From NCBI RefSeq assembly GCF_009687865.1, contig NZ_BLAE01000021.1, forward strand, positions 62,001 through 126,000: a stretch of 64,000 bases of DNA. The letters are read 5' to 3'. This document shows, one piece after another, positions 50,930 through 63,606 of the stretch; the first letter of the stretch is position 1, and each line of letters starts with the position of its first letter. Source of the stretch: Acrocarpospora macrocephala. Its GTDB lineage: Bacteria > Actinomycetota > Actinomycetes > Streptosporangiales > Streptosporangiaceae. The notes under the pieces are model-generated. The model was not told the origin of the DNA. It did no database searches and worked only from the letters and a program-made list of their open reading frames with translations. Both the position numbers and the translations under genes were made by a program.

Positions 50930-51284
50930 GACGATCCTCCTGATGTGGGGGACGACCGGCCCGGCCAGACGACATTGGACCGATCCAGTTCACTACTCAG
51001 AATAATCAGTCGACTACTCTCAGTAACACTACCCGAATGGTGAGGCGACCGTCGCCCTACCTTGCTCGCCATTCGCCCTGCTCAGGAGGTTAAGAACTAC
51101 TCGCCGTCAAAAAGATCAAGGATCATGGGTGGCCCTCTCACCGACTCTTCGCTTCCTTGCTGGGTCGGCCCAGCGACGCCCGGACTCGGGCCGATCACTC
51201 AGGACGGCAGGGCGATGGATGCTGCTTCACAGCGACCGCGCCCCGCTACCGGACCCGTCTCGCGTCCCACCGGAAACGGACGCG
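50930..51284. other. 355-bp gap without a recognisable gene
   Basis: Upstream region of the 50495-50929 gene and downstream region of the oxidoreductase gene. AT-richer sequence around 50990-51060 could hold the promoter of the secreted protein. I see no tRNA, conserved RNA or repeat here; the open frames crossing it on the plus strand lack family motifs. Confidence 0.5.
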
Positions 51285-52277
51285 TTACGGGAGGACGACG
51301 ATGCGCCCGCAGGGGCGGTGCGGCTCGGCGCCTTCTTGGAGGCGGTGGGATCGGGCGGCCTCGGTGAGCGGCAGCCGTGTCCCGATTCGGGAGACCAGGG
51401 TGCCGCGAGCCAGGAGATGATTGATCGCCGTAGCCGCCGCGGCGAGTTCAGCTACGGTGGCGTTGCTGATCACAAAGCCCCGGAGGCTGGCGTTGCGCGT
51501 GTAGAGCTGTCCGACCGGCAGCACAGGGGTGGCGCCGAGACCAGCCAGGATGATCATCCGGCCACCGTGGGCGAGCAGCGGGACGGTCTGCTCCAGGTGG
51601 TGCTGGCCGGCGGAGTCCCAGAACACGTCCACCCCGCCGGGAGCGAGTTTGGCGATCTTCACGTACATATCCGGGTCGTGGTAGTCGACGACTTCGTCGG
51701 CGCCGCACCGCCGGCACCAGTCGAAGTCGTCCGGGCGTGCGGTCGCGACGACCCGCGCCCCCGCGGCCGCGGCGAGTTGAACGGCGGCGGTGCCGACCCC
51801 GCCGCCCGCACCGGTCACGACGACCGTCTCCCCGACCCGCAGGCCCGCCTCCTTGAACAGGCCGATGTACGCGGTGGCGGCGGTGTGCAGGGAGGCGACC
51901 GCGTTCTCCGGATCAACGCCGCCGGGCAGGAGGTAGAGCCGGTCTGCGGGCACGGCGGCGTACTCGGAGAAGGACCCCTGGCGACCGTCGAACCCCAGGC
52001 TGTTGCACCACACCGTGTCGCCGGGAGCGAACCCCGTCGCCGCCGTGACCACGGTCCCCACCAGGTCACGGCCGATGATGAACGGGTACGGCAGGCGTGT
52101 CCGGTAGGCGCCGGAACGGACGAAGGTGTCGACGTGGTTGACCGCGAGTGCCCGCACCTTCACCAGCACCTCCGACGAGCCGAGCTCGGGCACCTGGAAC
52201 CGGCCGATCCGTATCTCGTCCGCCGAGCCGGGTCGCGTGATGTACGCCGCGGTCATGGTCTCCTGGTCGCTCGTCAT
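51285..52277 (-). CDS. Quinone oxidoreductase-like MDR protein
   Basis: A 330-residue medium-chain dehydrogenase/reductase. The N-terminal GroES-like domain has VLVKVRALAVNHVDTFVRSG and IIGRDLVGTVV. The Rossmann domain has VVVTGAGGGVGTAAVQLAAA. The zinc-ligand cysteines of alcohol dehydrogenases are absent, so it groups with NADPH:quinone reductases. It overlaps the upstream flavin-type gene by ATGA, forming a two-gene operon. Confidence 0.88.
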   Translation of the reverse strand: MTSDQETMTAAYITRPGSADEIRIGRFQVPELGSSEVLVKVRALAVNHVDTFVRSGAYRTRLPYPFIIGRDLVGTVVTAATGFAPGDTVWCNSLGFDGRQGSFSEYAAVPADRLYLLPGGVDPENAVASLHTAATAYIGLFKEAGLRVGETVVVTGAGGGVGTAAVQLAAAAGARVVATARPDDFDWCRRCGADEVVDYHDPDMYVKIAKLAPGGVDVFWDSAGQHHLEQTVPLLAHGGRMIILAGLGATPVLPVGQLYTRNASLRGFVISNATVAELAAAATAINHLLARGTLVSRIGTRLPLTEAARSHRLQEGAEPHRPCGRIVVLP

Positions 52278-52741
52278 TCCTCTTCCAGGTCAGCGAGGTA
52301 CGTACGCGCCCACGCCTGCCTGAGATCACCCTCGTCGGCGCCGCCGAAGGTGTAGGCCGGAGACAAGATCGGCAGCGCCCTCTCCACGTGCACCAGAATC
52401 GCGCGAATGGCGGGATAGCCGGGACCGTTCAGGTCGAGCAGCCACGCGTGCAGCCACTCGTACACAGGATCGCCAGGCTCGCGGAACTCCGCGGTGCCCT
52501 TGAACCGGTAGCCCCGCCTGCGGAGAAAGTCGATCGAGTTGATCTCGATACGCGGATCGCGTTCGAGGTTGCCGACCGTGTTCGGGGACGCGATGTCCAT
52601 GAAGGCGATGTGCTCATCGTCGTAAACCCGCATCGATCCCTTCGGCGAGAGATTCGGCGAGCCATCGGAACACACGGTGGCCACAAAGGACAAGCGCGAG
52701 TTCTCCACGATCAGGCGCATATCATCATCGATTGTCTTCAT
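52274..52741 (-). CDS. Pyridoxamine 5'-phosphate oxidase-family flavoprotein
   Basis: About 155 residues of the FMN-binding split barrel. Typical segments are LSFVATVCSDGSPNLSPKGS, HIAFMDIASPNTVGNLERDP and RYRF-type KGTAEF. It probably binds FMN or F420, with a redox or detoxification role suggested by the linked quinone reductase gene. Two adjacent ATGs are available (52741 and 52744). I use 52741, which has GAAGG about seven bases upstream. Confidence 0.82.
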   Translation of the reverse strand: MKTIDDDMRLIVENSRLSFVATVCSDGSPNLSPKGSMRVYDDEHIAFMDIASPNTVGNLERDPRIEINSIDFLRRRGYRFKGTAEFREPGDPVYEWLHAWLLDLNGPGYPAIRAILVHVERALPILSPAYTFGGADEGDLRQAWARTYLADLEEE

Positions 52742-52997
52742 CATCTCCCCTTCAGTGAGGCCCAAGCTTCGCCCTCAGGGAGGAGGTCAGGTTCCACACT
52801 TCCCGCGCAGGTCACGCCTTGATCGGTCGGATGACGAACGATCACCCACACCGGTTACCTGCCCAGCTCAGCTCTCCATCAAGCCAACGCGGCCGCCCGC
52901 CAGGTCGCGCTCACCCTGCTGCCGCCTCCGCTCGCACCAAATGGATCAGACCGTTCTTTCCCGCGCGAATTCCCCCTGCGCGGAGCACCATGGACGG

Positions 52998-54419
52998 GTG
53001 ACGGAAATCGAGCCGCACGACGCGCGGGCCCTCGCCGAGAGCCTGCGCCAGGTGTACGACGCGGTCGCCCAGCGCATCACCGAGGACAACGCCAGCTCTC
53101 CGCTGGTGACCAAGGTGACCGAGCACCTGGGCTGCCCACTGAGCGACGTGGTCGTGGTCGAGGAGAAGTACCGCCTCTACGAGCACGTCGCCCTGCAGAC
53201 CGGCGCCGACCGCTACCTGCGCGCGCACACGCCGGACGCGCGCTGGTTCGGGGTCGTCGGCGGCGAGCGGCGCTGGGAGAGCATGATCAACATGCTGCTC
53301 GGCGCCATGCGGGACGGCAGCCGCCTGCTCGGCCTGCCCGACTACGGCACCGCGCCGGTGGACCATGACGCGACCATCGAGGTCCTCCAGCTCGGCCTGG
53401 TCGCCACGCACGCCCCCGACGGCACGCCGGTGATCCTCGGCATCAGCGACCGCGAGGACTACAGCAAGTTCTGCCTGATGACGGTGATCGCGGCCGACCG
53501 GGCGGCAGCGGGAGCCGTACGGGACGAGGTGGACCGGCTCAAGCGCGAGCACGACCCGTTCCGGGGAAAGGTGCTCAGCTTCGGCTTCAGCGAGCACCGC
53601 GAGAACGAGCTGCTGACCTTCCTGCCGCGCCCCGAGCTCACCCAGGACGAGGTGGTCCTGCCCAGCGGGCGCCTGGAGGCGATCGAGGAGCACGTCGTCG
53701 GCATCGCCCGGCAGGCCGGGCAGCTACTGGAGGCAGGCCAGCATCTGCGGCGCGGCCTGCTCCTGTACGGCCCGCCCGGCACCGGCAAGACCCACACCAC
53801 GCGCTACCTGATCGGCGCGCTGAAGGACCACACCGCGATCCTGATGACCGGCCCGGCCATGCGGTACGTCGACTACGCCGTGGCCCTCGCCCGCAAGCTC
53901 GCGCCGTCGGTCATGGTGATCGAGGATGTGGACCTGATCGCCGAGGACCGCAGCCACCACGAGACGTCGCCACTGCTGTTCTCGCTGCTCGACGCCATGG
54001 ACGGGATCGCCGGCGACGTCGACGTCACGTTCGTGCTCACCACCAACCGGGTGGAGTCGCTCGAGAAGGCCCTCGTGCAGCGGCCCGGCCGGGTGGACCT
54101 GGCGGTCGAGGTGCCCAAGCCAGACGCCGACGCCCGGGAGCGGCTGATCCGCCTGTACGCCCGCGGCCGCGCGATCGAGGCCGACGTCACGAAGGTCGTC
54201 GCGGCCACCGACGGCGTGACGGCGTCGTTCGTCAAGGAGCTGCTGCGCCGGGTGGTCCTGATCGCGCTGCGCGCGGAGGAACGGGCCTTGACCGACGACC
54301 ACTTCGACACCGCCCTGCAGGCCATGTCGGGCGACGCCCAGGCCCTCACCCGGGCCCTCCTCGGCGGCACCCCCGCCGGTCAGGAGCGCACCCCGACGCG
54401 TCTGAATCCTCCCTGCTGA
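52998..54419 (+). CDS. AAA-family ATPase (FtsH/CDC48-like module)
   Basis: A 473-residue protein with an N-terminal region of ~230 residues of unknown fold. It is followed by an AAA module: Walker A LLLYGPPGTGKTHTTRYL, Walker B SVMVIEDVDLIAED, sensor/arginine-finger region VLTTNRVESLEKALVQRPGR, and a helical lid. No protease or helicase domain is attached, so it may be a chaperone-type unfoldase. The GTG at 52998 has only a weak upstream GGAG, so the start is provisional. Two hairpins follow it. Confidence 0.85.
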   Translation: MTEIEPHDARALAESLRQVYDAVAQRITEDNASSPLVTKVTEHLGCPLSDVVVVEEKYRLYEHVALQTGADRYLRAHTPDARWFGVVGGERRWESMINMLLGAMRDGSRLLGLPDYGTAPVDHDATIEVLQLGLVATHAPDGTPVILGISDREDYSKFCLMTVIAADRAAAGAVRDEVDRLKREHDPFRGKVLSFGFSEHRENELLTFLPRPELTQDEVVLPSGRLEAIEEHVVGIARQAGQLLEAGQHLRRGLLLYGPPGTGKTHTTRYLIGALKDHTAILMTGPAMRYVDYAVALARKLAPSVMVIEDVDLIAEDRSHHETSPLLFSLLDAMDGIAGDVDVTFVLTTNRVESLEKALVQRPGRVDLAVEVPKPDADARERLIRLYARGRAIEADVTKVVAATDGVTASFVKELLRRVVLIALRAEERALTDDHFDTALQAMSGDAQALTRALLGGTPAGQERTPTRLNPPC

Positions 54420-54441
54420 TCCAGCGGTAGGGGGATGCGCC

Positions 54442-54478
54442 GACGTCTCGGACGCTGGCCCTTCACGTCCGAGACGTC
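54442..54478. terminator. 13-bp perfect hairpin after the AAA ATPase gene
   Basis: GACGTCTCGGACG and CGTCCGAGACGTC pair perfectly around an 11-base loop. A second hairpin, GCCTGGCG with CGCCAGGC (54502-54509 and 54521-54528), follows. Both lie in the gap to the convergent zinc-ribbon gene. Confidence 0.75.
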
Positions 54479-54566
54479 TCATCTCCCTGAGCTTGTGATG
54501 TGCCTGGCGCCGAGCACGGACGCCAGGCGAGACAACGCATCGCGCTCTTCATTCACGGAGCCGCGA

Positions 54567-54875
54567 TCAATCCGAATAGGTGGTGGGAGGAATGGTTTCG
54601 TACTCCGGTGCCTCTCCGCTGGAGAGGGCTCTCTTCTCCTCCGTGGTAACGCTTTCACCCCAGTCGGGCACGCTCACGCGGGAGAAGAAGATTCCCTTCC
54701 TGCAGTTGTCGCACCAGAATTCCGCCCAGCCGACCGACCGATCCGTCCTATGGACATTGAACAGCAGTCGAAGGCCCGGCCGACCACAGCTGGGACAGGG
54801 CCGGGTCCTCAAGGATCGAGGATCATTGAACACCCGGCCGTACTCCCGGAGCCATTTCTCGTAGATTTCACTCAT
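54567..54875 (-). CDS. Small zinc-ribbon-like protein
   Basis: 102 residues with two cysteine pairs, RPCPSCGRPGL (near residue 27) and FWCDNCRKGI (near 55), spaced as a zinc ribbon. A charged C-terminal tail follows (SVPDWGESVTTEEKRALSSG). It lies 29 bp downstream of a truncated Rhs/YD gene on the same strand, the position where polymorphic-toxin immunity genes sit. That role is inference and the protein is not one I recognise. Confidence 0.65.
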   Translation of the reverse strand: MSEIYEKWLREYGRVFNDPRSLRTRPCPSCGRPGLRLLFNVHRTDRSVGWAEFWCDNCRKGIFFSRVSVPDWGESVTTEEKRALSSGEAPEYETIPPTTYSD

Positions 54876-54904
54876 CGGCGTTCAGTAACTCATGTTCTTC
54901 GGGT

Positions 54905-55480
54905 TCAGGCTGCGCCGGTCAGCAACTCGATCTTCCACCCCAGATCCGGGATGGTCTTGTAGGTGCCGGAGGTGCGATCCTTGACGATCTGCGCGGACCT
55001 GCCGTCCACGTTCAGCACCAGCTCAGACTGGGTCAGATCGTTGGTGGAGTCACCGTCGTTGAGATCGGGAGACTCCCAGCAGACGTGGTTGCCGCCGTCG
55101 GCGGTCTCCGCGACCCAGATCTGGTTGGCTTCCTCGTCGTAGTAATAGACGTCGCAGCGACGGAAGCGTCGTTCGATGAAGCCCGCGTTCAGCTCCCAGC
55201 CGCGCCGACCACGCCGGACTGGTTCCTGCCCGTCGATGGACGAGGCGTCGTAGCTGAGGGACAGCCCGGGCCCGCTTCCGCCGGGTGATGGCGGTTCGGA
55301 GATCGGCAGGTCATAGGAGAACACGCCGCCCGAGGCCCCGGCCTGCCAAGTCCCGGACGGTTTGAGGTCGGTAGCGGCGAAACTGCCGTCCGGGCTGGTC
55401 AGACCCGCCGCCAGCAGGCACACGACGTCTGTGCCCGTCGTCGCCCTGCCGACTCTAGGCGAGCACGGTAGCTTTCTCAT
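54905..55480 (-). pseudogene. Truncated Rhs/YD-repeat protein, N-terminal fragment
   Basis: About 191 residues. The sequence SGTWQAGASGGVFSYDLPIS, then SGPGLSLSYDASSIDGQ and GWELNAGFIERRFRRCD, is the conserved N-terminal (SpvB-like) start of large actinobacterial Rhs toxins. The frame ends soon after the DLGWKIELLTGAA motif, where full-length proteins continue for over a thousand residues. The leading segment is also a poor signal peptide. I call it a remnant left after deletion. Its ATG lies inside an 18-bp inverted repeat. Confidence 0.75.
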
Positions 55481-55521
55481 CGGTGTTTCGCCCGTGAAAA
55501 GTAGGCGAAACACCGATGAGA
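55475..55521. repeat. 18-bp perfect inverted repeat
   Basis: TCTCATCGGTGTTTCGCC (55475-55492) and GGCGAAACACCGATGAGA (55504-55521) pair exactly around an 11-base loop. On the minus strand it would lie just downstream of the NlpC/P60 gene if the transposon were absent, so it is probably that gene's original terminator. It also contains the ATG of the Rhs remnant. The transposon target duplication starts 15 bases away. Confidence 0.8.
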
Positions 55522-55535
55522 CAGCGAGAATCTAC

Positions 55536-55540
55536 AACGG
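55536..55540. repeat. Left target-site duplication AACGG
   Basis: Five bases directly before the TGTAG terminus, identical to 62967-62971 on the other side of the element. Confidence 0.85.
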
Positions 55541-55730
55541 TGTAGCGTCCCGGCGTAACTGACATGTGGCAGCCCTGTGACCCGCATAGGTGCGGCTTGT
55601 CTCAGAGGGATGTCATCCCAGTTCGTCTCAACGCCATGACATATGGAGCTTGTGGACCGAAACCCCGGCCCCAGCCGCCTTGACCGATCACCACCCGTGA
55701 CCTGCGGCAGCGTTGTCGCCGCATCAGGGG
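55541..55730. other. Left transposon end
   Basis: 190 bp of non-coding DNA between the terminus and the tniQ stop. It holds TGTAGCGTCCC, then ACTGACATGTGG, GGGATGTCATCCC and CCATGACATATGG. These resemble motifs in the other end (TCTGAATGTCGT, GGATGTCGTC, GATGTCGT), so they are candidate TniA/TnsB binding sites. Confidence 0.6.
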
Positions 55731-58700
55731 CTAGGGACGCTCTTGGAGAAGACCCCTCGAGACGGCACGACGTTCGACTTCGTAGGTTGCGGCCCGGTGC
55801 CCGTCTGGGGTCAGGGTGTAGTAGGTGCGGCGGCGGCCCGGGCCGCATCCGTTCGGGGCGCGGTCGAGCCATGACTGATCGTCTTCAAGGCGGCTGGTTA
55901 ACCAGCGCGCTTGCTTCAGGCGGTTGAGGAGCGGATAGAGAGTGCCTTGGTCGAGGCCGGTCCGGGCACGGATTTGGGCTCCATAGAACTCTTCGCCCGG
56001 GTGGTCGAGAAGGTGGCGTAGGAGTGTGAGTGTGGAGGAGCCGACACGGATCCGTTCGACGGGGATGTCGTCGAACGGGACCATAGGCCCTGGTGGGCGT
56101 CGTGTGGTGAGGCTTTCTGTGGCTTGCGCCAGGACGGCAGAGCCGGGCATGGGCGGGATTGAGCTGCCGCGGAGTGCGGCGTTCATCGAAGCTTGGACAC
56201 GGTCGTTCTGCAGATCGTGGAGAAGAGCGTGGCCGCGTGTGGTCGGGCGCTGGGGCTTGGCGAAGGCGGATCGGTGGAACAGCGGCTCGCCGATGTCGTG
56301 TTCCAGTCGCTGGAGCTGTTTGACCAGGGCGTTTTGGTTGGCGTTGAGGTAGCTTGCGGCCGTTTTCTGGTTCGGGAACTGCATGGCGATCTGGAAGCGC
56401 CGCAAGCGATGCCAGCCGTGCAGGCTCCCTTCGACGGCCGCCCGGACGTCGGCCGGGATGTGCGGGGCCAGGACGGCGTTCATCTGCGGGAAACCGGCGA
56501 CGCCTTGCGGCCGTAGCGGGACGCCGAGGCGGCGCAGGGCCCGGTTGACGGTCATCTGCGTTGTCCCGAGTTCGGTGGCGATCTCGGCGGTGGAGCGGTG
56601 CCGGTCGCAGTACTGCTCGCGCAGCCAGGCTGGGTCGATGGGGAACGGGGTTGCCGCTTTGGCCAGGGTGATACCAGCCTGCTTGGCGAACCGCGCGATG
56701 GTTTTTCGGTCGAACCCGGTCTCCTCGGCGATCTCTTTCAGGCGGCGGCCGCGTTGGAGGTATTCGCGCTCGAAGAAGTCCCTGGTGAACAGCTGTGCGG
56801 CCTGTTGTTCGCGCAGCCAGGCGTTGGGGACTGCCCCCCTGCTCCACTGTCGTTGTGGCCGGTCCAGGCGTTCCAGCGCGATCCGGATGTGCTCGATATG
56901 GACGCCGAGGGCTACTGCGGCGTCGCCGAGAGGCCGGTGTTCGTCCACGACGAGGCGGCTGACCGTGTCCATGTCCAGCGTGTCGGTGTCGATGCCGGGC
57001 AGATCCACAAGGTCCTCGGCGAGTTCGGCAGGCGGCGACCAGGTCAGCGGTTCGGCGATGCCGAGATCGGCCAGAAGCGATGTTGCATGTGCCCGCAGCG
57101 CGCGGCGCAGAGCCGGGGTCAGTGAAACGGCGAAGTCGACAAAGCGGTTGCGGTCGCCGGGGTCGCGGAATGCCAGTTGGTGACGTCGGTCGGCGAGATC
57201 GGCGCCAGACAGCAATTGGTGCAGGTGCCGTTGGGCGTGCAGGTGACGCCCTTGATCGGGGCGGTCGCCCGGGTGAGCCCCGGCTGAGCAGGCCAGGGCT
57301 CGCCATTGATGCCAGCCGAGGGGCGCGGCCGGGATCTGCTCGCGGCGGCGCTGGTAGTCGATCGGCGAGCCGACCTCATCGAGGTAGTCGGCGATCCGGC
57401 AGAGCAGGGCGAGGACCTGGCTGTGGGATGATCCGGGCAGGTCGGCGAACCCCTGGAGAAGGCCGGAGATAATGTGGCTGCTGACCCGGGGGTTGAGGGG
57501 CGCGGCGACCCCGGCGAGATCGCGACGAGGATTCCCGGGAATCAGCAGGCAGGCACTGATCGCCGCGCGGAACAGCTCGGGGAGGAAGCCAGCAACAGGC
57601 AGAAGACGCCCCGACCAGTCGGGCCAGAACATTTGCGGGATCGCCCGGACCCGCCCGGTGACATCGCCGGTCGGGCGTGCGGCGGTGGCGAGGGCCGATT
57701 TCATACGCAACCGCTGCAGGGATGACAGGTCGGTGTCGGCGGCTCGCAGGAACCGGTTCGGGAACGTGGGTGCCAGGGAATTCCATCGCCGTGCCGACAT
57801 ACCCGGCGGCGGGACCCTTCTCCTGGTCTCCAGGCTCGACAAGACACTGCGTAGCGTGGCTGTGGCCCTGTCGCCATCAGGTCCGAGAATGGTTTGTGCG
57901 TGAATGAGGAGGGCCGCGGTCAACGGCGCGCCGGTGCGGGGCCGGCGCCCGGTGCCGCGGTCGGCTGTCAGCGTCTGCGGAAGTCCGCGGGCGAGGCGAT
58001 TCGCGGTGGTCTGGAGTTCACCGCGCTGATGGCGCAGCAGCCAGGAGACCACAACCGGGAGGTCGGCGAATAAGCTGCTGGCCGCGAGTCCGCCAGTTCC
58101 GGCGAGTTCGGCGATCAGTTGGTCGATCCAGTTCTGAACCTCCAGGACCGCAGATCCGGCCCGGTGCGCGGGCGCGGTCGTCAACTCCGCCCCGCAACGC
58201 CGGCGGGAGCCCTTGGGCAGATGCGTGCAGGTCGCCGGCGGAATCGGCGTGGCACCGCCAATGACCGTCCTCCTCGGCACGGCGCCGCAAGCCGGGCACC
58301 CATCATGGAGCAGCAGCAGGTGCCGGCGGCAGGCGACCGTCCAGTTCAGCCGCCAGGAAACCTGCCAGCCGTCATGGTCGGCCAGGCACCGTGGGCAAAA
58401 CCGTGATCCACCCGAGAGCAATGGAGTCACTACCGCGATCGCGTCGCCGACGGCGCTGTCCAACCGCCGCTCCTGCAAACCGGTGGCCTGCTCGACGCGG
58501 CGCCAGAGCGCCGGGTCGATTCCGTAGATCAGCCTGTTGGTGAAAGTGACGCGAGTGGGCGGGGGTAGTCCGAGGACCGGCAGCAGCGGACGCGGCGCGA
58601 TCTTGTGACGGCGGGCCAGCCTCTCGATCCACGAGTCGACGCTCTCCCCTTCGGCTATGCCGACGCGCAGCGGCAGCGTCCTGACCGCCGTCAGTGCGTG

Positions 58701-58751
58701 CTCCGTGCGAGGATGCCCGTCAGCCGGGCCCGCGGTGCGTAGCCCGGTCAC
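55731..58751 (-). CDS. tniQ: TniQ/TnsD-like target selector with extra DNA-binding domains
   Basis: 1006 residues. The N-terminal ~210 are TniQ: LPLRVGIAEGESVDSWIERL and a zinc-knuckle region with RFCPRCLADHDGWQVSW, CRRH and GCPACG. Several HTH-like segments follow: STAEIATELGTTQMTVNRAL, and a LysR-like TAASYLNANQNALVKQLQRL with EPLFHRS. The last ~115 residues resemble a PadR-type winged helix (EEFYGAQIRARTGLDQGTLY, TLTPDGHRAA). TnsD-type proteins bind the attachment site and recruit TnsC. The GTG start overlaps the tniB end by ATGA-type coupling (58748-58751). Confidence 0.85.
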   Translation of the reverse strand: MTGLRTAGPADGHPRTEHALTAVRTLPLRVGIAEGESVDSWIERLARRHKIAPRPLLPVLGLPPPTRVTFTNRLIYGIDPALWRRVEQATGLQERRLDSAVGDAIAVVTPLLSGGSRFCPRCLADHDGWQVSWRLNWTVACRRHLLLLHDGCPACGAVPRRTVIGGATPIPPATCTHLPKGSRRRCGAELTTAPAHRAGSAVLEVQNWIDQLIAELAGTGGLAASSLFADLPVVVSWLLRHQRGELQTTANRLARGLPQTLTADRGTGRRPRTGAPLTAALLIHAQTILGPDGDRATATLRSVLSSLETRRRVPPPGMSARRWNSLAPTFPNRFLRAADTDLSSLQRLRMKSALATAARPTGDVTGRVRAIPQMFWPDWSGRLLPVAGFLPELFRAAISACLLIPGNPRRDLAGVAAPLNPRVSSHIISGLLQGFADLPGSSHSQVLALLCRIADYLDEVGSPIDYQRRREQIPAAPLGWHQWRALACSAGAHPGDRPDQGRHLHAQRHLHQLLSGADLADRRHQLAFRDPGDRNRFVDFAVSLTPALRRALRAHATSLLADLGIAEPLTWSPPAELAEDLVDLPGIDTDTLDMDTVSRLVVDEHRPLGDAAVALGVHIEHIRIALERLDRPQRQWSRGAVPNAWLREQQAAQLFTRDFFEREYLQRGRRLKEIAEETGFDRKTIARFAKQAGITLAKAATPFPIDPAWLREQYCDRHRSTAEIATELGTTQMTVNRALRRLGVPLRPQGVAGFPQMNAVLAPHIPADVRAAVEGSLHGWHRLRRFQIAMQFPNQKTAASYLNANQNALVKQLQRLEHDIGEPLFHRSAFAKPQRPTTRGHALLHDLQNDRVQASMNAALRGSSIPPMPGSAVLAQATESLTTRRPPGPMVPFDDIPVERIRVGSSTLTLLRHLLDHPGEEFYGAQIRARTGLDQGTLYPLLNRLKQARWLTSRLEDDQSWLDRAPNGCGPGRRRTYYTLTPDGHRAATYEVERRAVSRGLLQERP

Positions 58752-59884
58752 GCTGTTCGCTTCTTAGGCTTGCTGGTCAGCTTTCCGGCGGCGAACGCGG
58801 TCTCGAGTTCGAGGCGGCCTTTCTCGGAGGCGGCGTCGATCTTGACCTGATCCAGGAGACTGACATCCAGGCGTTCGGTCCCGGTGCGGACGGCTCGTTG
58901 GCAGCCCCGGTTGATCAAGGTCATCAGGGAGCCGATGTGTCCCGTGCTGCGGGCGAACAGGTAGTCGGAGAGCTCATCGGCGATCATTCCTGGGAACTTG
59001 TCGGCCAGTACGACGCGTTGCTCGATCGCCAATAGGGTGTTGCGCCAGTTCGTGCGGCCTCCGTCGGTGTTGATGAGGAAGGGGTCCATGCCGAGCCGGG
59101 TGGTGCGGCGGCCGGTCTGGGCCAGGACCGCGTCCTCGTAGCTGTCGCCTTCCTCGAACAGTCCTCGCTTCTGCAGGCCAACGCCGATCATGAGCAAGGT
59201 AATGGGGAACTCGTTGGCGATGTATTTGAAGTGGTTGCTGACCTCGATGCCGTTCTTGCTCCTCCACCCCAGAAAGTGCAGGTCATCCACGATCAGCAGC
59301 TGCGCCTCGCTGGACAGGATGGTGTCCAGTGCGCGGAAGCCGAAGTCGGCGGCGGTGCCGCGGATACGGCCCGGGTGGCCGTAGAACTCCAAGATGGCGC
59401 GGTTGAAGTCCCGCATGCTGGTGTTGCTGGTCAACCCGACCCGGCAGACCGGCCATCGCTCGTCACCGGGCTCGGTGTACTCCCCCTTCTCCTCGATCTC
59501 GCGGCGATGCAGCTTCTTGGCGAAGGCCAAGACGGCGGTGGTCTTGCCGAGCCCGGGGAACGCGTCGATCGCGACCCCACCCTTGACCTTGTCGCCATCC
59601 TGGTCGTTGCTGTCGAAGATGTCCCACAGATCCTCGTGCAGCGCCGCCATCTGCGGTGTCTGGATCGGCCCCAGGTTCGCGTGATGCTTGCGGCGTCGTT
59701 TGTTGTACTCCGCGAGAGCCGGTTCACCCAGGTTGTTGAGCTGGCGGCGGGCGAGTTGCTCGGGCCGCTGCCGAGCAGGAGCCTCCACCAGGCGTTTGAA
59801 GCCTTCCTTGCGCGACAGCGTCAGATGATCCAGCTTGGACCGCAGATCATCGTCAGGCTTTTGGGGTTGGCGGCGCTCAGTCAT
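58748..59884 (-). CDS. tniB: TniB/TnsC-like transposition AAA ATPase
   Basis: About 378 residues from the ATG at 59882-59884. It has Walker A VAIDAFPGLGKTTAVLAFAK near residue 115, Walker B EAQLLIVDDLHFLGW, and an AAA-type sensor region with FPITLLMIGVGLQKRGLF. It links the target selector to the transposase. It overlaps tniA by eight bases upstream and tniQ by four downstream. Confidence 0.92.
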   Translation of the reverse strand: MTERRQPQKPDDDLRSKLDHLTLSRKEGFKRLVEAPARQRPEQLARRQLNNLGEPALAEYNKRRRKHHANLGPIQTPQMAALHEDLWDIFDSNDQDGDKVKGGVAIDAFPGLGKTTAVLAFAKKLHRREIEEKGEYTEPGDERWPVCRVGLTSNTSMRDFNRAILEFYGHPGRIRGTAADFGFRALDTILSSEAQLLIVDDLHFLGWRSKNGIEVSNHFKYIANEFPITLLMIGVGLQKRGLFEEGDSYEDAVLAQTGRRTTRLGMDPFLINTDGGRTNWRNTLLAIEQRVVLADKFPGMIADELSDYLFARSTGHIGSLMTLINRGCQRAVRTGTERLDVSLLDQVKIDAASEKGRLELETAFAAGKLTSKPKKRTA

Positions 59885-62081
59885 CGACGTCCTTGAGTGC
59901 GGTCGCGTAGAAGTCGTCCTCAAAGTCGCTCACCGGATCGCCCATACCCTCGGTGCCGTCGGAAGTCCGATCCGGCGGGGCCAGGTCGAGTTCGTCGGCG
60001 TCGTCATCGTCGCCGGCCTCCTGCGCCGGTGGCGGCTGCGACTGGTCGCCTGCCTCGGCCGGACCGCCGAGTGCCTTGCGGACCGAGGCCGGCGACGGCA
60101 CGGGGTCGGCGTCCAAGTCGGGCAGTTCGACGGCAGCTTGTTCACGTGACAGCCGCAGGGCCATCCGCCGCTCCGTCCGGCTCATCTCCAGCCCGAGATT
60201 CCAGCGTTTGAGGAGGTCCGCGAGGGCGAGCTTGTCGTCGGGGTAGGTGTACTTCGCCGCGGCGAGCCTGCGGGAGAACTCCAATGCCTCCAGGCTGAAG
60301 GGCATATCCAGCATCGGCGCGTGCTCCCAGTCCAGCGCGTGCCACTGGCGTGTGTCGGGATGCCGGAAGTAGATCTTGGTGATGTCGTCGATGTTGACGT
60401 GGAAGGGCCAGCGGCCCTTGGCCGCACCCAGGAAAGGGCTGGTCTTGCCTCGGAAGTCCTCCAGCACGTCGCCGTTGTAGCGGCAGCGGTTGATCTCCAC
60501 CCCATAGTGATGGACCGGCAGGTACTCCACTTTCAGGAACTCAAAGCCCAGGTCCGGGTTCCGCGGCACCTCCACGTAACCGGACCGGGCGACTCCGTGC
60601 TCGAACATCATCGCGGGGGACAGCTTCAGCCCCGGCATGTGCGGGTCGACCAGACTGCGGTGCGGCCTGTGGTGGTAGACCACCGCGATCCACTTGGCGA
60701 TGATCGCCTCGAGTTCGTCCAGGAACAAGAACGCCTGCCCCTCGGGGTCAAGCCCCCGGGAGTAGACATCGGGGCCCTTGTAGCCAGGCAGCCGCTCCAG
60801 CAGGCCCTGCCGCAAGGTGCGGAAGAATCGCTCGATCGGGCCCTTGTCGCGGCCGGTGCGCAACCTCGCGGGCTGGATCGAGATCCCCAACCGACGGCAG
60901 ACACTGGTCACGTGCGCCGACGCGAACACCTTGCCGTGGTCGATCACAATGGTCTCCGGAACCCGCGGCGCCACCGCAGCCGCACGGACTGGTGTCGAAG
61001 TGAAAGCGTCCACGTCCATCAGCACGCCTCTGGGAAGGCCATGCTCGGGCCAGACGGCGTGCGCCGGCCAGTTCTTGCCCACCGGGCGGGGTCGGAAGGT
61101 CTGGTAGAGGATGCCGCCAACGTCCACGGCCTTGGTCGACACCGGCGTCACCCGCAGCCCGGTGATGGCCCGGTCATACCAGTCCATAGCGACGGTGATT
61201 TCGGCCTGCACCCACCGCAGCGTGATCGGATCCAGTGCAAACACATCCGACCGGGTGGTGTCCAGCAGCACATACTCGCCGGGCCGTGTCGGCCGAAGCC
61301 GCCCGTAGGCGGTCTTCGGCCGGTCAGCGCTTTCCCGGCGCCGCTTGGAGCTGCCGTGAAACGTCGGAACCCTGTGGTCCAGCTCTTCCAGATATCGGTA
61401 AGAGCTCGCACGGCTGGGCATCTTCACCACATCCGCCCCGTAACGGGCCTGCAGCCGGGCTGCGGTCTGCTCGGCGACCAGAGCCATGGTCGGCTGGGAC
61501 TCGCTGGTGTACTCAGCCATCACCTCCAGAGCCATCTCGACCCAGCGGGGATCGGCCTGGCCCAACCGCCCGGCTCCGTGCGGTTCCATCCCTTCGGCCA
61601 GACCGGCCTGGTGGAACCGCCTGTAGTCGTGGACCCAACGCTCGACTGTCCTGGGAACGACCCCCAACTCCTTCGCCTTGGCCGCATATCGTGTGCCCAG
61701 CGGCAGATCCGGGTCATACTCGGCTCTGGGCTCACCTGGCCCTACCAGCTCCTCGCTGCCGGAGCGATAGCCGGTCAGTACCTCTTCCAGATGCGCTGCT
61801 CGCTCAGCCACCCGTGCGAGTTGTGCGGGAGTCAGTCGGCCCAGAACTGTGCCAGCGGTCTCATACGGATCATCGGGTTCCGGCCCGTCGACGTCCGGGA
61901 TCACCCTGGCCCGGTCGGAAAACAGCAGCTCCCGTTGGGACATACGCCGTCTCCCGCCGCGCATGTCCTTCACGATGACCTCGTTGCCCGCTTTCGTCGC
62001 CACCAGTTCGACGATCTCGACCGTCTCACCGTCCAGTACCAAACGGGTCCCGACCCCGAACCGCACCCCGGCCCAGCTCAT
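59877..62081 (-). CDS. tniA: TniA/TnsB-like DDE transposase
   Basis: About 734 residues. The N-terminal part has HTH segments (GVVPRTVERWVHDYRRFHQA). The rve catalytic core carries DDE: Asp in EYVLLDTTRSDVF, Asp in ETIVIDHGKVFASAHV and Glu in DKGPIERFFRTLRQG. A Mu-type C-terminal beta-barrel follows, and an acidic tail (EAGDDDDADELDL) probably contacts TniB. GGAGAG lies six bases before the ATG at 62079-62081, which overlaps the tnsA stop. Confidence 0.93.
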   Translation of the reverse strand: MSWAGVRFGVGTRLVLDGETVEIVELVATKAGNEVIVKDMRGGRRRMSQRELLFSDRARVIPDVDGPEPDDPYETAGTVLGRLTPAQLARVAERAAHLEEVLTGYRSGSEELVGPGEPRAEYDPDLPLGTRYAAKAKELGVVPRTVERWVHDYRRFHQAGLAEGMEPHGAGRLGQADPRWVEMALEVMAEYTSESQPTMALVAEQTAARLQARYGADVVKMPSRASSYRYLEELDHRVPTFHGSSKRRRESADRPKTAYGRLRPTRPGEYVLLDTTRSDVFALDPITLRWVQAEITVAMDWYDRAITGLRVTPVSTKAVDVGGILYQTFRPRPVGKNWPAHAVWPEHGLPRGVLMDVDAFTSTPVRAAAVAPRVPETIVIDHGKVFASAHVTSVCRRLGISIQPARLRTGRDKGPIERFFRTLRQGLLERLPGYKGPDVYSRGLDPEGQAFLFLDELEAIIAKWIAVVYHHRPHRSLVDPHMPGLKLSPAMMFEHGVARSGYVEVPRNPDLGFEFLKVEYLPVHHYGVEINRCRYNGDVLEDFRGKTSPFLGAAKGRWPFHVNIDDITKIYFRHPDTRQWHALDWEHAPMLDMPFSLEALEFSRRLAAAKYTYPDDKLALADLLKRWNLGLEMSRTERRMALRLSREQAAVELPDLDADPVPSPASVRKALGGPAEAGDQSQPPPAQEAGDDDDADELDLAPPDRTSDGTEGMGDPVSDFEDDFYATALKDVDD

Positions 62082-62833
62082 CGTGCTCTCTCCAGCACGT
62101 GATCGCCTGACAGCACAGCCGTCAGATCCACGCGATAGACCTGCGTCCAGAGCAGGTGAAGTAGGTGAGAACGAGTAAGCCGCTGCGGCCACCCGGTGAC
62201 GGCCCCCAGGGCCTCGCGCAGCGTGCGTCCTGCGAGATCCGAGCTGATCAACGCTTCGAGCAGATCGGGGTTGAACAGCCAGCTCCGGCGGAATCCCGCC
62301 AGCAGCCTCAGATTCGCCAACTCCGCTGTGGGGGGTTCGGACCACACCTCATACCGCCAGTTGCGGTCTTCGACGACCTCCCTAGCCCACGCCAACGTGA
62401 ACGCGACCTTCTCCTTCTCCAGCCGCTCACGAGGTTTGACGTCCACCACCACCGGCCCTGCATCTGTGAACAGCAGAAAGTCCGGCACATGCCGTCGGAT
62501 CTTCCCTTCGACCTGCGCAGTGAGCAGGAACGGCTGAGCCTTGATCCAGGCCACGCCCAGGTCGAAATCGGCGTACAACAGCCTCGCCAGCTCCAGCCGA
62601 GACTCATAGATCACAAGGTCGAACATCGTGACAGACCAGTAGAAACCAGGGAAATGCTGCTGCCCGTGATGCCAACGGAACGTCCGCCATGGTGTGGCCG
62701 CCTGCAAACGTTCAACGCTCACAAGCGGCCACTCCAGGCCGTCCTCGTTGGTTCCGTCCTGGGCACGCACAGACACCGTCGCCGACGTGTATGACAACTT
62801 CGAGACAGCCGATCCACTGATCACAATTCGCAC
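62078..62833 (-). CDS. tnsA: TnsA-like endonuclease
   Basis: A 251-residue restriction-like nuclease. The catalytic pattern is FDLVIYESRLELARLLYADF (Glu), RRHVPDFLLFTDAG (Asp) and VVVDVKPRERLEKEK (V-D-V-K), followed by a helical C-terminal domain that in Tn7 binds TnsC. TnsA cuts the 5' ends, giving cut-and-paste movement. A GTG at 62833 or 62824 may start it. It is the gene nearest the right end, 133 bp from the terminus. Confidence 0.9.
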   Translation of the reverse strand: MRIVISGSAVSKLSYTSATVSVRAQDGTNEDGLEWPLVSVERLQAATPWRTFRWHHGQQHFPGFYWSVTMFDLVIYESRLELARLLYADFDLGVAWIKAQPFLLTAQVEGKIRRHVPDFLLFTDAGPVVVDVKPRERLEKEKVAFTLAWAREVVEDRNWRYEVWSEPPTAELANLRLLAGFRRSWLFNPDLLEALISSDLAGRTLREALGAVTGWPQRLTRSHLLHLLWTQVYRVDLTAVLSGDHVLERAR

Positions 62834-62966
62834 TCTTACATAAGCAAAGAGTGATTGGTGGTGAAACCGCTAAGATCACCCGAAGATCCACGACATCGGC
62901 TGGGACGCCGACGACATCCAGACGACAAGATCCTTGAGAATACGACATTCAGATTGAGAACCTACA
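62834..62966. other. Right transposon end and tns promoter region
   Basis: Read inward from the terminus on the minus strand it has TGTAGGTTCTC, TCTGAATGTCGT, TTGTCGTC, GGATGTCGTC and GATGTCGTGG. The TGTCGT-type motif thus recurs four times within 75 bp, typical of transposase binding sites. Further in, TTTCAC and TATGTAA-like sequence could drive tnsA. Confidence 0.6.
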
Positions 62967-62971
62967 AACGG
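62967..62971. repeat. Right target-site duplication AACGG
   Basis: Five bases directly after the CTACA terminus and directly next to the NlpC/P60 stop codon (62972-62974). Confidence 0.85.
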
Positions 62972-63583
62972 TCAGAGACCGGGTCTTACCGCACCGACGA
63001 AGGTGCGCTTGCGGTAGGAGTTCAGCTTGTCGATGCGAACGCGGGCTCCGCTGTGCGGGGAGTGGACCATCCTGCCTTTGCCGACATAGATGCCCACATG
63101 ACCGCCGCCGCTGGTGAAGATCAGGTCTCCGGGCTTGAGGTTCTTCCAGGAGATCTTCTTCTTCACCGCGCGACGCTGGGAATAGGTGGTTCGCGGGAGC
63201 TTCACGCCTGCCTTGCGCCAGGCGAACACGGCCAGACCGGAACAGTCGAACGCGCCGGGACCGGTGGCTCCCCACCGGTACGGATCGCCGATCTGTTCCT
63301 TGGCCACCGCGACGGCCCGCCGAGCCTTGGACCGCTGGCGTGCGGCCTTGCTCATCGTGGCGCGTTGCTTCACCGAACTCTTGGCCCGGCCGGCGGCCGG
63401 AAGATCGGAGCTGGGAACGTTCCCAGTGGTGGCCTGGTCGGCCGTTTCGGTCTTCGTGAGGGTGACTGTCGTCGTGTCAGCCGCCACGGGCTGCGCCGCG
63501 AACACTCCGACCGAGGCCGTGAGAGCGACGCCGCCCAGGGAGAGACGGGCAAGACGGGACAGACATGCGGGGGTGGTTGACAG
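62972..63583 (-). CDS. Secreted NlpC/P60 cell-wall hydrolase
   Basis: Peptidoglycan endopeptidase. The catalytic Cys is in GAFDCSGLAVFAWRKAG, the His in SGGGHVGIYVGKGRMVHSPH. The canonical GTG at 63503-63505 would cut the signal peptide in half. An in-frame CTG at 63581-63583, six bases after AGGAG, gives STTPACLSRLARLSLGGVAL and a normal signal ending near VAADT. I therefore place the start there. A c-di-AMP riboswitch lies immediately upstream and a Tn7-like element immediately downstream. The C-terminus appears intact. Confidence 0.85.
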   Translation of the reverse strand: MSTTPACLSRLARLSLGGVALTASVGVFAAQPVAADTTTVTLTKTETADQATTGNVPSSDLPAAGRAKSSVKQRATMSKAARQRSKARRAVAVAKEQIGDPYRWGATGPGAFDCSGLAVFAWRKAGVKLPRTTYSQRRAVKKKISWKNLKPGDLIFTSGGGHVGIYVGKGRMVHSPHSGARVRIDKLNSYRKRTFVGAVRPGL

Positions 63584-63606
63584 GATCGCTCCTATGATCT
63601 TCCACG

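Follow-up and report, generated by a model that had tools for sequence, protein, structure and literature searches.

We analysed a 64,000-nucleotide stretch of DNA from Acrocarpospora macrocephala (hereafter the window), which carries a Tn7-like transposon directly beside the stop codon of an NlpC/P60 peptidase gene, and compared the element and its target site with those of its relatives. By direct sequence reading the element covers 55541-62966 (7,426 bp). The features of the locus are the following:

55471..55525, no strand: hairpin with 22-nt arms, probable terminator of the NlpC/P60 gene, split from that gene by the element
55536..55540, no strand: left target-site duplication AACGG (sequence reading)
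55541..55730, no strand: left element end (TGTAGCGTCCC...; sequence reading)
55731..58751, minus strand: tniQ/tnsD, target selector of 1006 amino acids (Pfam; full-length homologs)
58748..59884, minus strand: tnsC, AAA+ ATPase of 378 amino acids (AAA_22, TniB)
59877..62102, minus strand: tnsB, DDE-type transposase, 741 amino acids from the start used (start uncertain; the open frame has 822 amino acids)
62078..62833, minus strand: tnsA, endonuclease subunit of 251 amino acids (Pfam, NF033179)
62834..62966, no strand: right element end (TGTAGGTTCTC seen from the NlpC side; sequence reading)
62967..62971, no strand: right target-site duplication AACGG, CCGTT on the gene's strand (sequence reading)
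62972..63592, minus strand: NlpC/P60 peptidase target gene, stop codon 62972-62974, start uncertain (PF00877, 1.7e-25)
63026..63100, minus strand: putative recognition block of 25 codons starting with the His of HVGIYVGKGRMVHSPHSG...; its first base precedes the duplication by 129 bp

On the left side AACGG at 55536-55540 is followed by TGTAG from 55541. On the right side CTACA at 62962-62966 is followed by AACGG at 62967-62971 and then by TCA from 62972, the stop codon of the minus-strand NlpC/P60 gene. The terminal 11 bases (TGTAGGTTCTC and TGTAGCGTCCC) match at 8 of 11 positions and the 5-bp duplication is exact; the empty sites of the relatives and of the window, described below, back this combination of duplication and inverted terminal sequences. 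The original prediction, made from the letters of the window, had given the same termini with AACGG on each side, which was confirmed to the base, and had put the right end against the NlpC/P60 stop codon with tnsA nearest, as was also found. Its span of 55541-62971 starts correctly, but the end takes in the right duplication. The genes tnsA, tnsB, tnsC and tniQ all point in one direction, with tnsA nearest to the NlpC/P60 gene, and since the four frames take up approximately 7.1 kb of 7.4 kb, sizeable cargo would not fit.

TnsA matched PF08722 above the cut-off and the NCBIfam model TnsA_like_Actin (NF033179) with 220.5 bits. The TnsB matches (rve, rve_3 and Mu-transpos_C) were all below the Pfam cut-offs; by tblastn TnsB showed 58-62% identity, among the best matches listed, to proteins annotated beside TnsA-like genes. 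TnsC matched AAA_22 and TniB above the cut-off. Motifs of catalytic look were seen in TnsA, TnsB and TnsC, and we take these to be the catalytic ones. TniQ carries the TniQ domain (PF06527, 9.5e-15) at residues 27-148, weaker helix-turn-helix matches at approximately 660-745, and matches to LysR-type HTH_1 (781-840) and MarR_2 above the cut-off. A PadR match was just under the cut-off (26.7 vs 27), and a MarR/PadR-type winged helix lies at approximately 901-1000. This long C-terminal part of TniQ, with its helix-turn-helix, LysR- and MarR/PadR-type matches, is likely the reader of target DNA. A TnsB-type DDE transposase with a TnsC ATPase, a TnsA subunit and a selector of the TniQ/TnsD family are thus all present, and the element is apparently an intact, cargo-free cut-and-paste Tn7-like transposon of actinobacterial type, which may still be active. 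A second copy was not found in its own genome, where the other three TniQ matches covered the PadR-like tail only.

The NlpC gene was present in all five genus genomes examined (own included) with 82-99% identity. In the other four (G004, G003, G002, G001) the sequence continues past the NlpC stop codon without an element, and the flanks from both sides of the element occur in the same order. When its flanks are joined, the window sequence can be aligned through the junction to G004, G003 and G002; small indels occur in the spacer, and an exact letter-for-letter copy of the joined sequence was not found in these three. The expectation of element-free relatives in the original prediction therefore held in four genomes, but not down to an exactly joined copy; its 18-bp inverted repeat corresponds to the hairpin at 55471-55525, the arms of which are 22 nt. 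In the element-free relatives this NlpC stop codon is likewise followed by a hairpin or an inverted repeat, and the hairpin is therefore probably the terminator of this gene. Synteny and empty sites in the genus place the element at a conserved, presumably chromosomal locus between the gene and its probable terminator.

Searching plasmids with TniQ (tblastn) gave matches in 58 of 72,556 records, and 11 of these covered 96-98% of the protein including the PadR-like tail. In 10 of the 11 plasmid records the element is turned with its tnsA end towards the 3' end of a peptidoglycan hydrolase gene that ends in an NlpC/P60 domain (Pfam on five genes, L071 from sequence, and the other four records having the same hydrolase accessions as L036/L037). 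Three further genomes carry a TniQ of this clade at NlpC/P60 genes. G734 (L112) shares its insertion site with pDK1; G927 (L157) has a new NlpC site on an 8.4-Mb contig, with tnsB in two frames; and G210 (L123) has another new site. The original prediction had proposed looking for homologous TniQ proteins at the same kind of site, and such elements were thus found in plasmids and genomes.

In whole genomes the NlpC-homing TniQ clade is rare. At class level 12 of 394 genomes matched TniQ at 1e-40, the clade members being the own genome and G210 (partial). In the own family 62 of 200 genomes matched at 1e-3, many in the tail only, and the window alone was full-length. Family f4 gave matches at 1e-60 in 18 of 301 genomes, full-length in G757, G776, G793 and G734; judged by coordinates, G757 and G793 are apparently strains of plasmid records already counted. 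In f18 19 of 180 genomes matched at 1e-60 (full-length only in G927), and in f17 one of 35, not full-length. A scan of genome contigs gave one relative (L070), and no relative of the window element was found in viral contigs.

Nine distinct NlpC/P60 sites could be mapped. They are listed with their duplication and with the distances to the duplication from the His codon of the block and from the stop codon:

Window: CCGTT; His codon 129 bp, stop 0 bp
L035: GCAGG; His codon 128 bp, stop 17 bp
L036: ACTGA; His codon 128 bp, stop 17 bp
L037 (with L112): ACTTG; His codon 129 bp, stop 18 bp
L071: TCTAT; His codon 129 bp, stop 15 bp
L040: GCTTG; His codon 132 bp, stop 21 bp
L039: CCACC; His codon 125 bp, stop 2 bp
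L123: CCCGG; His codon 129 bp, stop -9 bp
L157: GGTCA; His codon 126 bp, stop 9 bp

The nine sites have nine different exact 5-bp duplications. Pfam NLPC_P60 was found in all seven target genes scanned, and the target of L071 and the remnant at L123 were identified from sequence. Empty-site searches of relatives covered L036, L071, L040, L035 and L157. The empty L036 site was found full-length in five records, one of them (pRHL1) identical at 600 of 600 bases, the empty L071 site in three records at approximately 90% (two of one strain), and the empty L040 site in ten records at 91.7-98.2%. Of 70 genomes from the genus of L157, one (G869) continues to align, with gaps, for a short stretch across the junction; in the remaining genus genomes among the matches listed the alignment stops near the gene end or soon after. 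Two pairs of elements are identical base for base: L036 and L037 (7033/7033), and L040 and L071 (7036/7036). Each pair comes from a strain of its own, in which the two members occupy separate NlpC genes on separate plasmids. We read these pairs as recent site-specific jumps between NlpC genes. Common descent, with one ancestral insertion beside an NlpC gene carried along, would fit the related hydrolase genes shared by several Rhodococcus plasmids, as well as the pDK1 and pDK3 insertions recurring in three sister strains. Given the differing duplications, the empty sites at the same loci, the identical elements at different hydrolase genes in one strain and the different lineage of the window backbone, we regard such an origin as highly improbable.

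The distances to the duplication start were counted from the first base of the His codon, and the His of the block is presumably the catalytic one. The His-codon distance ranged from 125 to 132 bp (mean 128.3, standard deviation (SD) 2.0), whereas the stop distance ranged from -9 to +21 bp (SD 10.2). The variances differed significantly (F=26, p=6e-5, n=9), and still did so when each hydrolase lineage contributed a single value (n=6, F=20, p=0.0025). The longer the tail, the shorter the stop distance, a compensation with r=-0.98. Over eight sites, before L157 was added, the spread per alignment column was 1.9 over 25 codons from the His, with larger values for the GD motif (4.8), the Cys (7.9) and the C-terminus (13.6-19.1). 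Seven sites contribute to the upstream columns, and a value of 29 arose in six columns in which L123 was plainly misaligned. The putative recognition block comprises those columns in which the distance to the insertion varied least. The distance rule was already in place when L157 was discovered, and this site fits it with 126 bp. The insertion thus keeps a fixed distance from the DNA of the catalytic-His block and not from the stop codon; the adjacency to the stop codon by which the original prediction defined the site is true at the window and particular to it. In eight of the nine sites the insertion lies past the stop codon, which leaves the enzyme whole.

A selector that reads the stop-codon region (terminator, 3' untranslated region), with the NlpC domain being incidental, would explain why the duplication lies 0-21 bp past the stop codon in eight of the nine sites. 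It would also suit the hairpin after the stop codon in the window and the Nocardia relative, which likewise sits at a stop codon, of a different gene. However, the stop distance varies five times more than the His-block distance, the compensation by tail length is nearly complete in its correlation, and the sequences between block and insertion are unlike by eye. At L123, moreover, the element is inserted before the stop codon and still 129 bp from the block. Reading of the stop-codon region is therefore unlikely.

TniQ and the TnsABC proteins of the window have different closest relatives. The counterparts of TnsA, TnsB and TnsC in L073, L076 and L077 were 53-67% identical, and the counterparts in the other elements of the NlpC clade (L035, L040, L038, L039 and L070) 38-51%. 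For TniQ the identities were 53-55% with Rhodococcus and Amycolatopsis TniQ, 43-44% with the L038 and L039 proteins and 29-32% with the ones from L073-L077. In the TnsC tree the window falls outside the backbone of the other NlpC elements, and in the TniQ tree it lies among them (splits 100/100). Approximately unbiased tests against forced agreement of both trees gave p=8.7e-6 and 2.3e-4. These conflicting ancestries indicate that TniQ was exchanged between backbones and that the NlpC address went with it. If instead the NlpC site were decided by TnsABC, or by TnsC favouring certain local DNA, one backbone at most sites would be expected, and one is indeed present at eight of the nine: four were placed in it by the tree, two by being identical to members of these four, and L157 and L123 by best protein match only, the latter with TnsA alone. 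The window however reaches its NlpC site with another TnsABC backbone, the other members of which have other TniQs and sit at dnaB where the gene could be assigned. We consider a decision by TnsABC very unlikely.

The best explanation, in which we have good confidence, is TniQ-directed homing to the catalytic-His block of NlpC/P60 genes. The original prediction had suggested that TniQ recognises the 3' end of the NlpC/P60 gene, which recurrence, empty sites and the target following TniQ all support. The long TniQ (TnsD-type) would act as the target selector and bind the DNA coding the catalytic-His block (HVGIxxGxGxMVHAPxxG), which lies towards the 3' end of genes for NlpC/P60 peptidoglycan peptidases. 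It would then have TnsC place the TnsAB-bound ends approximately 128 bp downstream of the block, with tnsA towards the gene; by analogy with TnsD, TnsC would be recruited by TniQ and set the point and orientation of the TnsAB insertion. TniQ itself may contact the block DNA through some of its helix-turn-helix parts. Conservation of the block follows the protein, so that DNA contacts are not readable from it.

Several observations weigh against this explanation. The Nocardia plasmid element L038, the TniQ of which is a clade member with 44% identity, ends at the stop codon of a virB4-like gene (4937); its matches to VirB4-like conjugation ATPases are below curated cut-offs, and an SCO6880-family gene adjoins. 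The contigs of L111 (G776) and of Amycolatopsis L070 stop at the element, and the target side is not covered. Among the nine target genes, four encode related hydrolases of Rhodococcus, and the sites are thus not fully independent. The empty L035 site was not found, no record spanning 80% of the joined sequence. At L123 there is an odd junction at the first base of the His codon, and this base was assumed. A motif model built on seven other sites scored the window gene at 42.5; among NlpC paralogs of the same genome L015, L027, L033 and L131 scored 48-62 and L132 -2.9, and other NlpC genes of the genus scored up to 68 (identical blocks merged). As an explanation of the choice between paralogs the motif model was rejected, the window gene not being top-scoring. 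A predicted TniQ structure, run with two sequences, had a mean predicted local distance difference test score (pLDDT) of 37 and was set aside.

The element shares with Tn7 the tnsABC genes with a TniQ/TnsD selector, the 5-bp duplication, the fixed orientation and the insertion just past a conserved gene, as TnsD directs it at attTn7. In both cases the selector would read active-site codons, as described for TnsD in passages of PMC2918618 and as proposed here for the NlpC TniQ. The target, however, is the NlpC/P60 domain family and not glmS: the nine mapped sites of the clade are NlpC/P60 genes and a tenth is virB4-like. According to the same passages TnsD binds the last 36 bp of glmS, approximately 25 bp from the insertion (PMC2918618), whereas the block of the window lies approximately 129 to 55 bp before the duplication. 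The window TniQ also differs in its 1006 amino acids with LysR- and PadR-type parts, the window copy has no cargo, and judged from gene packing, without a TnsE profile, there is no room for tnsE. Nor is there room for cas genes, and no repeat array was found in the window element, unlike in transposons associated with CRISPR (clustered regularly interspaced short palindromic repeats). Tn6022, as far as passages of PMC10293859 describe it, has at comM a selector (TnsF) that likewise relies on the codons for a catalytic motif, in this case Walker B, as its anchor. It differs in that TnsF is separate from a short TniQ and the gene is inactivated (passages of PMC11406308); the window family has a single long TniQ and leaves the gene whole in eight of nine sites.

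A 2021 survey describes, in its relevant passages, an Actinobacteria-dominated clade 2 of Tn7-like elements with no tnsE homolog and no experimentally characterised member (PMC8649781). The window element is actinobacterial and Tn7-like as well, the likeness being by description only; these passages on clade 2 give no attachment gene, and that of the window family is NlpC/P60. Attachment genes named for Tn7-like elements in passages of PMC11406308 are glmS, comM, tRNA genes, parE and yhiN. NlpC has no occurrence in the main text of PMC10293859 and PMC8649781, and an NlpC attachment site was not found in the open-access papers searched, with supplementary tables outside the scope, so that it may be listed there. 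The family is thus known, and the NlpC/P60 address and its geometry appear new.

In Tn7 the targeting of chromosome and plasmids is split between TnsD and TnsE, according to passages of PMC11406308. How elements lacking tnsE enter plasmids is left open in the passages of PMC8649781, with plasmid selectors not yet known as one possibility. The NlpC-homing TniQ is a concrete, testable candidate for such a selector, with native empty sites known to the base. The surroundings of the pRHL3 site, tested for this plasmid alone, include genes for AAA_10 and FtsK/SpoIIIE ATPases and an M23-transglycosylase-NlpC hydrolase, and the NlpC hydrolases of the plasmids may serve conjugation. If this is true, one selector would cover chromosome and plasmids, as compared to TnsD and TnsE of Tn7. 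With MOB-suite 10 of the 11 plasmid records were typed non-mobilizable and pRHL3 mobilizable (MOBP), which speaks against calling these ten conjugative on such evidence and slightly weakens the case for one selector serving both habitats. We find it an even call whether a single protein selector uses a domain family as its address, with a chromosomal safe site and a plasmid-transfer wall hydrolase both within reach, thereby doing the work of TnsD and TnsE, and is exchanged as a module between TnsABC backbones with the address intact. A natural exchange of TniQ with the address following bears on the swapping of selectors for genome engineering, and the long lever of approximately 128 bp from block start to insertion is a geometry that needs explanation.

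Sibling elements with other TniQs were examined at 25 loci, one of them having no upstream listing. Eleven of the 25 (L113, L114, L116, L074, L124, L158, L159, L160, L161, L162 and L164) have one end 32-39 bp beyond the SRFVDM codons of the dnaB 3' end. This gene was identified as DnaB_C by Pfam for L074 and by the shared C-terminus for the others; some siblings are close kin. By tree or best match the TnsC of ten of these is nearest to the side of the window, L113 being on the other side. In the other 14 siblings the NlpC signature was not seen by eye in the listed upstream frames. The dnaB-homing siblings, among them L114 and L160, have related tnsABC genes, TGTAGG-type ends and an insertion past a conserved gene in common with the window element, and differ from it in their target and its distance. 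Their TniQ profile match ends at or before approximately position 845, ahead of the PadR-like tail. The dnaB 3' end is apparently a second attachment site of related actinobacterial elements; a dnaB attachment site of Tn7-like elements was not found in the open-access papers searched. L160 is the sole dnaB sibling with its left end and duplication fixed, and a second tnsA-like gene follows, which suggests tandem elements.

On a Tsukamurella plasmid (L074/L156) the dnaB-homing relative is followed by genes for mercury, arsenic and other metal resistance, and an IS21-type element lies between two pieces of tnsB; the left end was not found by exact pattern in 49.6 kb. The tnsA start in L121 is near the 3' end of a gene with, by eye, a glyceraldehyde-3-phosphate dehydrogenase-like C-terminus. 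The L039 copy of the NlpC clade has a methyltransferase gene between its right end and tnsA, and thus carries cargo. The L038 insertion at the virB4-like gene gives the impression that the selector has moved to a different gene in a transfer cluster.

Directly behind the full element at L037 and L112, just left of its duplication, lies a piece that measures a few hundred bases, has TGTAGGTTCTC and GAGAACCTACA as its ends and is too short for transposase genes. The left flank of L035 resembles a decayed older element. The small pieces and this flank suggest repeated homing and non-autonomous copies. L123 (contig 49 of G210) is an internally deleted NlpC-homing element on a 3.95-kb contig; upstream of its NlpC remnant a piece resembles, by eye, the end of tnsC, suggesting rearrangement or misassembly. 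For the window, reading the left flank (TGTAGATTCTC) as a remnant of an older insertion was dropped, as the element-free G003 has partly similar sequence there. On the far side of the window element approximately 4.4 kb (51086-55540) had no alignment at the syntenic place of G004, and within this region a short frame at 54905-55513 has a weak SpvB match.

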